Assembly: GCF_014863545.1 (NCBI RefSeq)
Contig: NZ_CP062260.1
Span: forward strand, 4,791,501-4,855,500
DNA: 64,000 bases
Source of the DNA: Paenibacillus sp. JNUCC32
GTDB lineage: Bacteria; Bacillota; Bacilli; Paenibacillales; Paenibacillaceae
Reading direction: 5' to 3'
Shown in pieces: positions 2,631-25,464 of the stretch. The position numbers and the translations under genes are program-made. How positions within the stretch are numbered: the stretch's first letter is position 1; each line of letters opens with the position of its first letter. The notes under the pieces were generated by a model, which made no database searches, had not been told where the DNA came from, and was given only the letters and a program-made list of their open reading frames with translations.

Positions 2631-2730
2631 AGTCTGTTGACACGGATGCGGGTATCTCAACTGTTTTTGGCTGGGTTGGCGACGAAGGAGTGAAAACGGA
2701 TGGTATAAGGCGAACGGCTAGACGACAGAC

Positions 2731-2786
2731 ATCCAAGCAGCATGCCCGGGACCACGCACTGTGGGCCAGGGAGCAGTGCGCATGAT
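2731..2786 (+). repeat. dispersed repeat, copy 1 (ATCCAAGC...GACCAC...GTGCGCA element)
   Basis: Shares ATCCAAGC, GCATGCCC, GGACCAC and GGGAGCAGTGCGCA in the same order with a copy at 23816-23897 and, in part, with an inverted copy at 57841-57900. Inside it GCACTG (2756-2761) and CAGTGC (2774-2779) form an inverted repeat. It is directly followed by the GCGGAYC palindrome cluster, as is copy 2. Confidence 0.7.
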
Positions 2787-2795
2787 GCGGCTGAT

Positions 2796-2990
2796 CCGGA
2801 CCAGAGATCCGCTATTTTCAATAATTCGCCTGAATTTCAATATAAGCGGACACCAGATCCGTTATGTTACGAATTCCGGTTCGATATCCGCCTGTTTTCA
2901 GAGAATAACGGATCTCATGTCCGAAACATTTACGAATCCCCTTATTTCTCATCAAATAAGGTCCGCTGTGTCCGCTAGCGATGCGCAATG
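2796..2990. repeat. cluster of imperfect CGGAYC-n-GRTCCG palindromes with TTATTT tails
   Basis: At least four short imperfect palindromes follow each other at 30-60 base spacing: CGGACCAGAGATCCG (about 2800), GCGGACACCAGATCCG (about 2849), ACGGATCTCATGTCCG (about 2908) and GGTCCGCTGTGTCCGC (about 2960). Several are followed by TTATTT or TTATGTT. A second cluster at 23928-24110 has the same motif and shares the 15-mer CCCCTTATTTCTCAT (2938-2952 and 24021-24035). Confidence 0.6.
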
Positions 2991-3030
2991 TGAGATATTC
3001 GGCTATTTTGGTACGTTATGATCAAAAATA

Positions 3031-4058: not shown

Positions 4059-4958
4059 TCACTCTTCAAACGATAAATTGGCGGGCTCCTCAAGCAGCTC
4101 ATAGTGAACGTCTAGGTTCGTCGTCGGTACGCTGAGATCTACCTCTTCAAAACGGAAGCTGTCCACCCACACCTTGCCTGTCCCCATAAGCAGGACGCCG
4201 ATCGAGATCGTGGCGCTATCTTCAGGCACGTCCAGCACGATGGCATAGTGATTCCAGTGCGTGCTGCCGACGATGCGCCGATTGTTCATATTATCGAACT
4301 GGAGCACGTCTTCGGCACGATTGTCGACGCGCATCCACAGTCCGCAATAGTCCTTCACGTTATCGGTTTTAACGAATCCGGAGAAGCGCATCCGCTTGCC
4401 CGCATACTTGCCGGCTTTGAACTGCTGCATCATGGTTGCAAAAGCGCCATCCTCCATCGGCGTAAGGGCTCTTAAGTAACCCGAGGTACTTCCCTGGTGG
4501 ACGGTGGTCCGATCGACGCCGATCTCATAATCTTGAGGGTGGCTTCCGCTTAGGAACCAGCCTTTTAATGGGGATTGAGCTTGCTGCTGCATGTGATCCT
4601 CTCCTTTTGGATAATGTGAATGATGGGCATGAACCGCAAAGATTTTGCGGTAACGCCCCGGCGGCATGCCGTACAATTTTTTGAATGCTCTCGTAAACGA
4701 CTCCTGGCTCTCGAAGTGACAGTGCAGGGAAATATCGATAATCGCAGCCTCGGTGTGCAGCAGGAGCTGCGCCGCATAACAGAGCCTTCGTTTTCTAAGG
4801 TAATCCGCGATGTTCATGCCGACCTCCCTCCGAAACAATCGGTGGAAATGATACGGCGAAAAACCGGCATAGGATGCAATATCCGCGAGGGTCAGCCGCT
4901 CCTCCAGATGCTGCTCCATGTACGCGATGCTCTTTTGGATAATACGCTGGGTACTCAA
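4059..4958 (-). CDS. AraC family regulator with C-terminal beta-rich domain
   Basis: A 299-residue regulator whose AraC-type double helix-turn-helix is at the N-terminus (about residues 5-105: TLADIASYAGFSPYHFHRLFRREVG, then FESQESFTRAFKKLYGMPPGRYR). The remaining 175 residues are unlike the usual GyrI-type effector domain: the pattern MRFSGFVKTDNVKDYCGLWMRVDN ... GTGKVWVDSFRFEEVD looks like a beta-sandwich of the carbohydrate-binding or CIA30 kind. I placed the start at TTG 4958 because AAAGGAGGG sits 7 bases before it; a longer frame to 5051 has no such site. It stands alone with no partner gene beside it, so its target is unknown. The domain fold is inferred from pattern only. Confidence 0.82.
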   Translation of the reverse strand: MSTQRIIQKSIAYMEQHLEERLTLADIASYAGFSPYHFHRLFRREVGMNIADYLRKRRLCYAAQLLLHTEAAIIDISLHCHFESQESFTRAFKKLYGMPPGRYRKIFAVHAHHSHYPKGEDHMQQQAQSPLKGWFLSGSHPQDYEIGVDRTTVHQGSTSGYLRALTPMEDGAFATMMQQFKAGKYAGKRMRFSGFVKTDNVKDYCGLWMRVDNRAEDVLQFDNMNNRRIVGSTHWNHYAIVLDVPEDSATISIGVLLMGTGKVWVDSFRFEEVDLSVPTTNLDVHYELLEEPANLSFEE

Positions 4959-21138: not shown

Positions 21139-22186
21139 GGGCCAGCCCTCTCAGCCGCTCCATGAACTCCCTGTGGCGGTTGTCCTTCTCGTCCACCCGG
21201 TTCTCATCCGAACCGAAGAAAAACAATTGGTCGGCCGGCACGCCGAGACAGACCTGCTGATCGACATGGTATCTGTCATCCGGACATTTCACCATGAATG
21301 CATGACCATCGGTCGTCTTCACCTGATAAATCGTCTCGGAGCCCAGCATTTCTCGCGTGATGATCTCGCCCTTGGCCGTGTAGTGAAACGATTCCGGTTC
21401 CGTGCCGATCACAACGCTTTCCGGACGGAACCCGAACGTCGCGCGATCGTCCCCCAGCGGCGCAATGTTCATGGGAGGAACCCCGATGAACTGGGCCGCA
21501 AACAGATTGCTGGGCTTGCGGTACACCACTTCGGGCGGCGCCTCCTGCTGAATGACCCCTTTGTTCATCAGCACGATGGTATCCGCCATCGACATGGCCT
21601 CAATTTGGTCATGGGTCACGTAAACAAAGGTCGTCCCGAGCTTCTTGTGCAGCTCGATCAGCTCGATCCGCATCTGAACCCTCAGCTTGGCGTCCAGATT
21701 GGACAACGGTTCATCCATCAGGAAGACGGACGGATCCTTAACCATGGCCCGGGCTAAAGCCACCCGCTGCCGTTGTCCGCCGGACAAGGTGGAGGGCTTG
21801 CGGTCTAAATAATCGTTCAGTCCCACGGTTGCCCCTATGGTTTCCACCAGTCGCTTACGCTCGGCTTTGGGAACCTTATTGTTCACGAGGCCGAATTCGA
21901 TATTCTCGCGGACCGACATCGTCGGGTAAATGGCGTAGTTCTGAAACACCATGGCCACGCCGCGCTTCCCCGGTGCAATGCGCGTGACATCCTTGCCGTC
22001 GATCAGAACGGAACCGGAGGTTTGAGGGTCTATGCCCGCGATCATCCTTAGGAGCGTTGTTTTCCCGCACCCTGAAGGGCCGACCAGGACGGTGAATTTT
22101 CCGTCCTCGATGGTAAGATCCAAGTCCTGTATGACGGTTTGACGATCAAACGACTTGCTCACTTTCACAAATTCAATGGATGCCAA
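21131..22186 (-). CDS. ugpC: ABC transporter ATPase (UgpC/MsmX type)
   Basis: A 351-residue ATPase of the MalK/UgpC/MsmX family. All nucleotide-binding motifs are intact: Walker [10 protein letters not shown] near residue 37, Q-loop [14 protein letters not shown], signature [15 protein letters not shown] near 135, Walker [17 protein letters not shown] near 157 and switch His in [14 protein letters not shown]; a TOBE regulatory domain fills the C-terminus. The start TTG 22186 follows GAGGGGGA. It is the first gene of the operon, ahead of the two permeases. It is the only CUT1 ATPase in the window, so it could also energise the two importers at 9.3-12.3 kb and 46.9-50.3 kb, which have none. Confidence 0.94.
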
Positions 22187-22548
22187 GAGCGATCCCCCTC
22201 ACCAATGTGTAATGATGCTGTCATGACAAGCGAAAAAATGAACGATTCCATAACATGAAATCCCTTACATGCACCTGATAATAAGTACGCATCAAATGCA
22301 CATGTAATGATCACTTTTGTTCATTTTTATTTAATTCGATTGTAGATCTGCAATATTAGGAGAGTGTTAGGCCTTCGTACGGATTGTGTAAATTCGCTTC
22401 GCAGCAAGGGATTTAACATGGCATTAACATAACGGGAGTACACTAGATAGATATGGAGCCCATTAAGCATAAAAAAGCAAAAGTGCGCATTGTATGTACA
22501 AACGCACTCTGCTGCTCATTGTCCAATTAGGAAGGGAGAAATTATCGA
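22187..22548. other. divergent control region between ugpC operon and DeoR-type gene
   Basis: 362 bases with no gene. Besides the inverted repeat at 22482-22508, two copies of a TGTTCATTTTT-type box face each other: AAAAATGAACG at 22234-22244 and TGTTCATTTTT at 22318-22328, about 50 and 130 bases before the ugpC start. Such boxes resemble DeoR-family operators; the assignment is tentative. Confidence 0.45.
22482..22508. promoter_or_regulatory. 27-bp inverted repeat, candidate operator of the DeoR-type regulator
   Basis: AGTGCG-CA-TTGTA-TG-TACAA-A-CGCACT: both outer six-base and inner five-base arms match exactly. It ends 40 bases before the regulator start, between the two divergent units, where an autoregulatory operator is expected. 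Confidence 0.6.
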
Positions 22549-23310
22549 TTGCTGGCACACGAACGAAAGAAAAGGATCATTGATTACGTAAGGCAATACC
22601 GTACGGCAACGGTTGCCGCCCTGGCATCCGAATTCGGCGTCCATACGGCCACCATTCGCCGCGATCTGGCGGAGATTGAACAGGAAGGCGCTTTGAAGCG
22701 CACGCATGGCGGAGTCATCATGGAGCAATGGACGCATAACGAGCCATCCTTTAATGAACGGACCAACTTTCATCGGGACGAAAAAATACGCATCGGCCAG
22801 CTCGCGGCTTCACTTGTGGAAGACGGGGAAAATATCATCATCGATTCGGGGACAACCACCCTTCATATTGCTACGCATCTTGTGCACCGCTCGGACATTA
22901 CCGTCATAACCAACGATATGAACGTTGCCGTCGAACTTCGCGATGCTCCGGGCATCAAAGTCATCCTGACCGGCGGGGAGCTGTACCCCTCGAGCTATAT
23001 GCTAAACGGCATGTTTACCGACCATGTGCTGAAATCCCTGCATGTTGAGAAAGCGTTCATCGGCACCCCTGCCCTGCATCCCCAGCATGGCCTCATGCAC
23101 CCGGAGGCGCTGCTCGTCCCGGCCAAGCAGAACATGATTCAGGCCGCCGGCGAAATTGTCGTAGTCACCGACCACAGCAAGATCGGCAAGCTGTCCCTGC
23201 ATACGGTCGCTCCCAACAGCGCCATTCATACACTCGTTACCGGCAGCGAGGCTTCCGACTCGGATGTCAAGCCTTTTCAGGATCGGGGTATCACCGTTTA
23301 CAGGGTTTGA
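22549..23310 (+). CDS. DeoR/GlpR family transcriptional regulator
   Basis: A 253-residue regulator of the DeoR family. The N-terminal winged helix-turn-helix reads RKKRIIDYVRQYRTATVAALASEFGVHTATIRRDLAEIEQEGALKRTHGG, and the C-terminal DeoRC sugar-phosphate sensor domain includes IIDSGTTTLHIATHL, VITNDMNVAVEL and VILTGGELYPSSYMLNG. The start is TTG 22549, ten bases after GAAGGGAG. It is divergent from the Ugp-like operon and most likely represses it until a phosphorylated ligand such as glycerol phosphate binds. Its transcript continues through a 280-base decamer array before reaching a strong terminator at 23613-23643, which is highly unusual. Confidence 0.93.
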   Translation: MLAHERKKRIIDYVRQYRTATVAALASEFGVHTATIRRDLAEIEQEGALKRTHGGVIMEQWTHNEPSFNERTNFHRDEKIRIGQLAASLVEDGENIIIDSGTTTLHIATHLVHRSDITVITNDMNVAVELRDAPGIKVILTGGELYPSSYMLNGMFTDHVLKSLHVEKAFIGTPALHPQHGLMHPEALLVPAKQNMIQAAGEIVVVTDHSKIGKLSLHTVAPNSAIHTLVTGSEASDSDVKPFQDRGITVYRV

Positions 23311-23320
23311 GGCTAGCAAA

Positions 23321-23600
23321 CTTTGCATGCCTTTGCGTACCTTGGCATGCCTTTGCATACCTTCGTATCTTTGCGGACCTTGGCGGACCTTGGCGGACCT
23401 TGGCGGACCTTGGCGGACCTTGGCGGACCTTGGCGGACCTTGGCGGACCTTGACATGCCTTTGCATACCTTCGTATCTTTGCGGAACTTGGCGGACCTTG
23501 GCATGCCTTTGCATACCTTTGCACCTTTGCGTACCTTGGCGTACCGGCATATTTTTGCATACCTTCGTACCTTTGCATACCTTGGCATGCCTGAACATAC
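23321..23600 (+). repeat. decamer satellite, about 28 units of CTTNGCNNAC, in a 3' untranslated region
   Basis: From eleven bases after the DeoR-type stop codon, the sequence is built of 10-base units of the form CTTNGCNNAC. TGGCGGACCT is repeated seven times perfectly at 23381-23450. Flanking units are variants such as CTTTGCATAC, CTTGGCATGC, CTTTGCGTAC and the shortened CTTCGTAT. The array ends just before the terminator at 23613. Frames on both strands are open through it only because 10-base periodicity avoids stops; none has a start site, so I do not call a protein. Confidence 0.9.
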
Positions 23601-23612
23601 TTCTTGTAGAAA

Positions 23613-23643
23613 GCACAAAAGGCACCCCGGGGGTGCCTTTTTC
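23613..23643 (+). terminator. intrinsic terminator after the decamer array
   Basis: AAAGGCACCCC pairs with GGGGTGCCTTT (23618-23640), then TTTTC. It is the first terminator downstream of the DeoR-type gene, so the decamer array is inside the transcript. Confidence 0.85.
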
Positions 23644-23815
23644 AAGCTGCTGCTCGCCAGCGGCTTGCTTATTTATATTCCACTGCTATGTTTACCATCC
23701 ATACTCGCTTTTTTTCGCGATCACCGGCTTAGACCAAAAGAGCAAACAGCAGAAATTCACTGAACGTCTATAGACACAATCGCCATGTCATTCAATATGT
23801 CCAAAACTCAACGGT

Positions 23816-23897
23816 CGACAGCCAATCCAAGCATGCCCCGGACCACACACCGTGCACGCAGGGTGCACAGGGTGCACAGGGAGCAGTGCGCACGATG
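23816..23897 (+). repeat. dispersed repeat, copy 2
   Basis: Contains AATCCAAGCATGCCCCGGACCAC and GGGAGCAGTGCGCACGATG in the same order as copy 1 at 2731-2786, with a longer middle that holds GGGTGCACA twice in tandem. CGTGC near 23852 and GCACG near 23890 form an inverted repeat. It is followed at 23928 by the same palindrome cluster as copy 1. Confidence 0.7.
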
Positions 23898-23927
23898 TAC
23901 TTGTTCTTTGGTATAAGGACTTCCTAA

Positions 23928-24110
23928 CGGACTCAGAATACCTTATTTCATCGAAAACAACCCTTTTAGTAACTTTAGCGGACCCAGCGGACCTTATTTG
24001 CTGTTTTAATCGGTATTTGCCCCCTTATTTCTCATAATAGCGGATCTGGAGTCCGGTACATTGTGAAAAATCGGGTTATGATCTTGAATAACGGAACTAG
24101 GGTCCGTTTA
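23928..24110. repeat. second cluster of GCGGAYC palindromes with TTATTT tails
   Basis: Motifs include ACGGACTCAGAATACCTTATTT (in part), GCGGACCCAGCGGACCTTATTT (in part), GCGGATCTGGAGTCCGG near 24040 and ACGGAACTAGGGTCCGT near 24085. The 15-mer CCCCTTATTTCTCAT at 24021 is identical to one in the first cluster at 2938. Confidence 0.6.
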
Positions 24111-24219
24111 AGTTGGCAAAAGCCATGAAATCATACAGAAGGAAGAACATCGACAGTCAGTGAACCCACAATATTTCTTTAGGTAAATCCAAGCTATCAG
24201 GGTCAATGCGCAGCCGACG

Positions 24220-24270
24220 GAAGCTATCTTCTCTACGCTTATTAGAAGCTATCTCCTCTGTACTTATTAG
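24220..24270 (+). repeat. 25-bp direct repeat, two copies
   Basis: GAAGCTATCTTCTCTACGCTTATTA and a near-copy with CCTCTGTA in the middle follow each other with a 25-base period. Short, no function visible. Confidence 0.6.
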
Positions 24271-24381
24271 TGGAGGTGAAAAAAAGGAAATATACCACCG
24301 CCCACTCTCTCATTCCCTCCATCCGCATAGCGGGTGGTTCTTTGTTTCGCGCGGTTCACGCACGCAACTGGCTAAAGCCTA

Positions 24382-24412
24382 AGAAAAATCCGGCAGTCAT
24401 TAGACGCCGGAT
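24382..24412 (-). terminator. intrinsic terminator of the LPMO gene
   Basis: Minus strand reads ATCCGGC, an 11-base loop, GCCGGAT and then TTTTTC, 18 bases after the stop at 24430. Confidence 0.8.
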
Positions 24413-24429
24413 CCGGTCAAACGATCGAT

Positions 24430-25464
24430 TTAAGGGATAACCTTCCAAACTTCGGCAGATCCAGGTGTTTCGCCTTGAGTCCACCATTTTGCTTCATAGT
24501 TCACGCCATTGTGGCTGACTTTGCTGCCGCCTAAATAAACGGCTGTTGCGCTCCATGCCGGATAGGTCGTGGAACTTCCGGATGTTGAAACCGTAAGCGG
24601 AGCCGATGCGGATGATTTACTGCCTGAGCTGCTGACGGCTACCACAGTGTACGTATAGGACGTTCCTGCGGTTAGCCCCGTGTTGGTATAAGAGGTTGAA
24701 GTCGATGTACCCACAAGGGATCCGTTACGGTAGATTTCATAACTGGAAGCCCCGGTGGAAGCTGTCCATGCCAAGGATACGCTGCTGCTTGTTTGGGATG
24801 GGGAAGTAAGTCCTGTCGGTGCAGGAACGCCTGGGTTCGGAGTTCCGCCACCGCCGAAGTCTACATCGATGACGTTATAGAAAGCGTTAGCCGTGTCAGC
24901 TACTTCCCATACCGCCAGAATGACATGGTAACCGGACTTGGCAGGAACGTTACATGTGGATGCATAGTTTGTCGGAGGTTTTACGCCGCCGTAGTTAATG
25001 GAGCAGAAAGGCGTCAGATCGAACGAAGCTCTGCTCAGCGGAGCATTTTGATCCCAGCCGTCTTTCGTAATGTAGTATTTCCAGCTTGCCGTCGCATGGT
25101 TGGCCGTCAAATGCCATTGGAACGTCGTGGTTCCCGGGGAAATGCTTACTTTGCTCCAGCGAGTTGCGGACTGCTCATCGAGTTTAGGGAACGCGCCGCC
25201 TGCACTCGCGATTTTGCCATCGGCGGGACCTGCGTTCGGCCAGCCTTTAGGAGCTTCCAAGCTTTGCGGCTCATACACGATGGCACCGCAATCGGTGTTT
25301 TGCCCCTGCTTACACAGAATGGCGCGGCTTCCTGGAGAATCGACATATCCGTGGGCAGAAGCTTTATCCGCAAATAAAACCATGAACAAGGTCATCAACA
25401 ACATCGTGGAACCAGCAATGATCAAATTCTTGAGCCAAGCTTTGTTCGGCAAACTTAAAGTCAT
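24430..25464 (-). CDS. secreted AA10 lytic polysaccharide monooxygenase with FnIII and chitin-binding module
   Basis: A 344-residue copper oxidase that cleaves chitin (or cellulose) chains oxidatively outside the cell. The signal peptide ends at ADKASA so that the mature protein begins with His38 (HGYVDSPGSR), the N-terminal half of the copper histidine brace; the second histidine is His123 in LTANHATASWKYYIT, and DTANAFYNVIDVDF carries the axial Phe. Domains: AA10 at 38-205, a Gly/Pro linker, a fibronectin III domain at about 215-300 and a CBM5/12-type module at about 300-344 (WSATAVYLGGSKVSHNGVNYEAKWWTQG). ATG 25464 follows AAAGGAGG. A cre-like box lies upstream. It is monocistronic with its own terminator. 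Chitin is favoured by the CBM but not proven. Confidence 0.95.
   Translation of the reverse strand: MTLSLPNKAWLKNLIIAGSTMLLMTLFMVLFADKASAHGYVDSPGSRAILCKQGQNTDCGAIVYEPQSLEAPKGWPNAGPADGKIASAGGAFPKLDEQSATRWSKVSISPGTTTFQWHLTANHATASWKYYITKDGWDQNAPLSRASFDLTPFCSINYGGVKPPTNYASTCNVPAKSGYHVILAVWEVADTANAFYNVIDVDFGGGGTPNPGVPAPTGLTSPSQTSSSVSLAWTASTGASSYEIYRNGSLVGTSTSTSYTNTGLTAGTSYTYTVVAVSSSGSKSSASAPLTVSTSGSSTTYPAWSATAVYLGGSKVSHNGVNYEAKWWTQGETPGSAEVWKVIP

Follow-up and report, generated by a model that had tools for sequence, protein, structure and literature searches.

The region analysed here is a 64,000-nucleotide stretch (the window) that corresponds to positions 4791501-4855500 of the 7.0-Mb genome of Paenibacillus sp. 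JNUCC32. On its plus strand, an open reading frame with a TTG start codon encodes a DeoR-type regulator of 253 amino acids (22549..23310; Pfam DeoRC, E 9.6e-50; HTH_DeoR, E 1.3e-15). Divergent from this gene, the minus strand encodes an ABC ATPase, two permeases, a solute-binding protein, a glycerophosphodiester phosphodiesterase, and an iron-containing alcohol dehydrogenase family protein. We take these genes to resemble a glycerol-phosphate (ugp-like) uptake set. Downstream of deoR, an LPMO_10 gene lies on the opposite strand (24430-25464). At 98% each, the proteins of P. lautus NBRC 15380 and Paenibacillus sp. EZ-K15 are the closest named relatives of the regulator, and the host bacterium is, as judged by sequence, a member of the Paenibacillus lautus group.

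Behind deoR lies a decamer minisatellite (23321..23592, plus strand) with the consensus CTTNGCNNAC, supported by TRF and by comparison with shuffled sequences. TRF reported a period of 10, 28.2 copies, 77% matches, and 7% indels for 23321-23592, and the identity at lag 10 was 0.67-0.70 depending on the stretch, while letter shuffles, 2000 in number, peaked at 0.38 (0.37 in a second series). Since the TRF period is 10 and none of the 2000 letter shuffles was as periodic, the array that a preliminary description had placed after the DeoR-type gene is real, and its tandem head-to-tail units exceed chance, as is characteristic of minisatellites and VNTRs. However, the units are not uniformly 10 bases long, as had been stated: the 26 core-motif anchors are separated by 10 bases in 19 of 25 cases, by 8 in four, and by 18 and by 20 in one each, and 22 decamers fit a strict pattern. 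Eight copies of TTGGCGGACC are present, seven of which follow each other from 23380 and form a homogeneous core (23380..23449, plus strand), in agreement with the seven perfect copies described before, while the eighth is found at 23488. The outward grading of variants, in contrast, was not borne out, as no smooth gradient is visible and a 56-base block of mixed units running into the core (23339..23394) recurs on the same strand with 2 mismatches at 23447..23502, a step of 108 bp. The likeness of adjacent units was equalled in 99 of 5000 permutations, and its excess is modest (0.84 compared to 0.73-0.84 at distances 2-12). Taken together, the seven identical consecutive units, the block repeated at 108 bp, and the like neighbours are signs of local duplication. 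The hexamer GCGGAC, which had been pointed out as common to the array and dispersed palindromes nearby, says little. It occurs 22 times on the plus strand, of which 9 fall within the array, and 26 times as GTCCGC, where chance predicts 18.1 for either strand; two sites are located within 1 kb downstream of the array.

The array is followed by two stems. The first (23617..23641; 11 pairs) appears as terminator-like on the minus strand in our scan, and its plus-strand T run lies mostly inside the stem. For the plus strand, the scan lists the second (23643..23667) as terminator-like, and a T-rich stretch follows it in relatives as well. The terminator previously assigned to 23613-23643 corresponds to the first stem, which the scan lists for the minus strand only. 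Taken alone, 23600-23650 folds better than shuffles (z -2.46; 3 of 200 as good). Both stems, the first with the arms GGCACCC..GGGTGCC, are kept in the four other genomes with an array (see below), and P. glucanolyticus has them in a slightly altered form. Only our sequence shows a clear plus-strand T run at the first stem, and most relatives lack one, which makes the transcript end less certain; we regard the second stem as the better candidate for a plus-strand terminator. No plus-strand terminator-like site was found by the scan between the deoR stop codon and 23617. Because the array fills the gap from the stop codon to two conserved stems, it is predicted to be transcribed and, with no terminator-like site on the plus strand before 23617, it is most simply and most likely part of the predicted deoR 3' UTR.

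The distribution of the array was examined in 100 genomes of the genus, 14 of which (our own included) contain a DeoR match at E 1e-60; the genome collections hold one genome per species. The DNA after the deoR stop codon was read in 24 loci, several of which represent one place from two collections. An array was present at the equivalent place in 5 of the 14 genomes, namely our own, G060, G086, G091, and G090, with G060 and G090 identical to P. lautus and EZ-K15, respectively, over the 388 bases compared. No array was seen in P. glucanolyticus (97% DeoR), G006, P. lactis, or JCM 10914, nor in the more distant of the loci read. The five array genomes form one branch of the deoR tree (10 rows; support 81/81), which gives moderate support for a clade. 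From the deoR stop codon to the first stem, 309 bases were counted in our genome, 265 in G086, 116 in P. lautus, 109 in G091, and 97 in EZ-K15, so that copy number at a single locus differs between related genomes (five species, 97-309 bases) in the manner of a VNTR. Shuffles were as periodic as the native sequence in 0, 0, 0, 0, and 2 of 2000 cases for the five array genomes and in 224, 1792, 1584, and 1459 of 2000 for four relatives devoid of the array, the stretches of which are short (40-60 bases). In another collection, 66 of 68 DeoR loci lacked the array unit within the 100 bases after deoR, and two or more CTTKGC motifs occurred in these 100 bases only in the remaining loci, L034 and L035. 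The stems are conserved while the array is not. A loose GCRTAC theme is nevertheless found in all five array genomes (3-14 matches), and at least a short array is kept in each. Past the stems, the G091 locus (L016) differs by eye from the other species, with about 80 bases where they have about 20, as if the segment had been replaced or inserted.

Searches for copies elsewhere returned little. In our own genome, the array gave one blastn place and 11 matches to a degenerate pattern, all of them inside the array. A 20-mer of the array at up to 2 mismatches matched 5 of the 100 genus genomes, four of them at deoR. The remaining match, in G090, is attributed to chance, as it lies on another contig within an open reading frame that presumably encodes a sigma factor-like protein and contains no array; the G090 array itself was recognised by reading and periodicity and not through this pattern. 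At the family level, the 20-mer at 1 mismatch was found in 1 of 394 genomes (G091, at deoR), a weak test given that the pattern also misses the array of the window itself. No match was obtained in phages by BLAST with the low-complexity filter on, no exact 21-mer of the array occurred in viral contigs, and no Rfam family reached its gathering score within 22000-24700, where only SraB was listed (21.9 bits, 130 needed; E 0.22). A literature search, which covered few subscription papers, yielded no title or abstract opening on this array. A derivation of the unit from a dispersed element was considered and showed no link, AGCGGACCTTATTTG having 10 matches at up to 2 mismatches compared to 14 for a reversed control.

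The window contains further repeats. The stretches 23805-24120 and 2700-3020 belong to a dispersed intergenic family, with 15 and 13 places, respectively, in our genome (E 0.001, query included), partly common to both. Beside a copy of this family, a tandem array with a 37-bp unit (2414-2622; 5.7 copies) is located behind a hairpin and T run (by eye), which in turn follow a plus-strand open reading frame (1375-2217). Two copies of a 25-bp direct repeat (24220-24270) share the intergenic space of the decamer array.

The two long arrays differ in their make-up. A 30-mer of three CTTGGCGGAC units, at up to 3 mismatches, is found only in our genome among the 100 of the genus, and a 26-bp block with three matches in the G086 array, the spacings of which are mainly 9 and 8, is private to G086 in the same set. 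The private runs indicate that each of the two arrays grew from a unit of its own. The ancestor from which the P. lautus group descends probably gained a short run of units resembling TTTGCRTACC, of a size such as P. lautus and two other genomes have (6-9 core motifs). Replication slippage and unequal recombination would then have lengthened it independently here and in G086, starting from different unit variants. The ends of the array being kept, the array itself would be a tolerated spacer, and the stems 3' of it probably end the deoR transcript, in which case it most likely resides in the 3' UTR of the mRNA. We therefore favour, with a probability of roughly 0.78, a lineage-specific minisatellite in a predicted 3' UTR that has grown independently by slippage or unequal recombination and is tolerated as a spacer devoid of a sequence-specific function. 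Its occurrence, among the genomes compared, in only a few sister Paenibacillus species, with differing length and units, argues for ordinary repeat growth and not for a conserved device, and among the roles proposed in the preliminary description, the slippage-expanded spacer is the best supported, being lineage-restricted, variable in length, and built from different units in two species. The short array and GCRTAC theme kept in all five genomes speak against this reading, although weak constraint or recent ancestry could each explain them.

CsrB-like RNA sponges carry many conserved GGA motifs. Such a motif series is not present here, as GGA occurs 10 times in our array, 2 times in P. lautus, not at all in G086 and G091, and once in EZ-K15. 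The sponge that had been suggested is likewise not supported by the fold energy of the array, which is no better than in shuffled sequence (z -0.01; 50 of 100 shuffles as good), or by the CTTGGCGGAC run, which is private to this genome among 100. A broader proposal is that the RNA of the repeat acts by binding a protein or by pairing with the ribosome-binding site of deoR, the latter as described for icaR of Staphylococcus aureus, where a motif within the 3' UTR forms base pairs with the Shine-Dalgarno region according to the part of the report available (PMC3868564). The likeness to icaR as portrayed there extends to a long tail behind a repressor-type gene, and CCUU can be seen by eye in array units, three of which have CCUUC, a complement of part of GGAAGGGAG. 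However, in none of five species did duplexes of the 3' and 5' UTRs beat shuffles (167, 94, 45, 63, and 129 of 200 as good; a coarse test with very long pairings), so that the deoR tail differs from icaR in showing no pairing beyond shuffles. With the fold energies and GGA counts also against it, an RNA device seems very unlikely.

An action at the DNA level, either as a protein array on one face of the helix or as a decoy for the DeoR operator, was suggested by a period close to one helical turn and by the adjoining regulator gene. The claim that every unit faces the same side does not hold, since a helical turn of 10.5 bp gives a phase coherence of 0.10 for our array and 0.22 for that of G086, where spacings of 9 and 8 prevail (0.41 and 0.28, respectively, at 10.0 bp). 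Coherence is higher in the three short arrays (0.51-0.59 at 10.5 bp), but these values come from 6-9 anchors. Furthermore, the match of the divergent promoter to the unit does not exceed chance (239 of 300 shuffles as good). We consider such a DNA device extremely unlikely.

Translation of an open reading frame through the array would make it a coding repeat, and some frames are indeed open across it on both strands. However, units of 8, 9, and 10 bases break the frame, not one of the six frames, as counted from the ends, stays open in every one of the five species, and an open minus frame is missing from G086, which leaves this explanation with practically no likelihood. The minus-strand frames of 207, 95, and 110 codons in our sequence (23002-23645) appear as an effect of the stop-free repeat and are not kept in all relatives.

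Short-unit arrays were also sought beyond this locus. In 20 stretches of our own genome (400 kb), TRF reported 13 rows at score 50, and no unit below 20 bases with at least 5 copies was among them. At score 40, the 68 DeoR loci (453 kb) yielded 79 rows, and units of up to 15 bases in at least 4 copies were found in 8 loci. In L034 and L035 these represent the array described here, in L085 they lie behind deoR, and in L044, L059, L080, L086, and L093 they lie elsewhere. With 8 of 68 loci affected, such arrays are not rare in these bacteria, and since five of the loci have theirs elsewhere, the deoR tail is not clearly a special site. Two of these arrays belong to Cohnella nanjingensis (L044:5452-5653, 13-base unit, 15.6 copies; L059:29-164, 8-base unit, 17 copies). 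The array of L085 (Paenibacillus sp. FJAT-26967, 65% DeoR) is an unrelated heptamer repeat, TAAGTGC, with 17.6 copies (L085:3830-3959); it starts about 70 bases past the deoR coding end and precedes an open reading frame on the same strand that starts at 4070, and the scan showed no terminator-like site at it.

That an unrelated array follows the deoR homologue of L085 could be a sign that long tails are selected for at this gene, which counts against a mere spacer. The sequence of the array could be neutral and the tail length (97-309 bases) could alter deoR mRNA decay or translation, copy number adjusting the regulator over evolution. Swaps of 3' UTRs changed mRNA and protein in Staphylococcus, as stated in the part of a review available (PMC7821165), which makes an effect of tail length possible, and the array varies in just such a place. 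However, among the 68 loci, a short-unit array of at least 4 copies within 500 bases downstream occurs only in L034, L035, and L085, and we judge length-dependent tuning to be unlikely. A contingency-type 3' UTR, in which slippage of the decamer would change the tail length and thereby tune a glycerol-phosphate-type regulator, with L085 as a second case, is quite unlikely; if true, it would be the mRNA-tail counterpart of promoter-spacer repeats.

The minisatellite reading has clear parallels. Bacterial minisatellites and VNTRs used for MLVA typing, for example in Paenibacillus larvae, resemble the array in their short tandem units and in copy numbers that differ between lineages, as far as the available text of that work describes them (PMC5072193); compared to these loci as described there, variation of the array is shown between species only, and the locus is bounded by a stop codon on one side and terminator-like stems on the other. 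Among bacterial species, 3' UTRs vary in both length and sequence, as the accessible portion of the review cited above has it (PMC7821165), and work from 2020 summarised there found conservation to end near the stop codon, naming rearrangements, local changes, and insertion sequences as causes. The array locus likewise loses conservation near the stop codon, with length and sequence differing between close species, but the change here is a tandem array, and the words "repeat" and "tandem" occur 0 times in the main text of the review as available. Fast divergence of bacterial 3' UTRs is thus already in print there, and the array adds one member to the known minisatellites.

We regard the array as a case in which repeats grew fast and independently at a single site, and not as a new mechanism. 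It nevertheless provides a natural series of tails (no array, 97, 109, 116, 265, and 309 bases) with conserved ends behind a nearly identical regulator, which suits a direct test of whether tandem growth in a bacterial 3' UTR changes expression.
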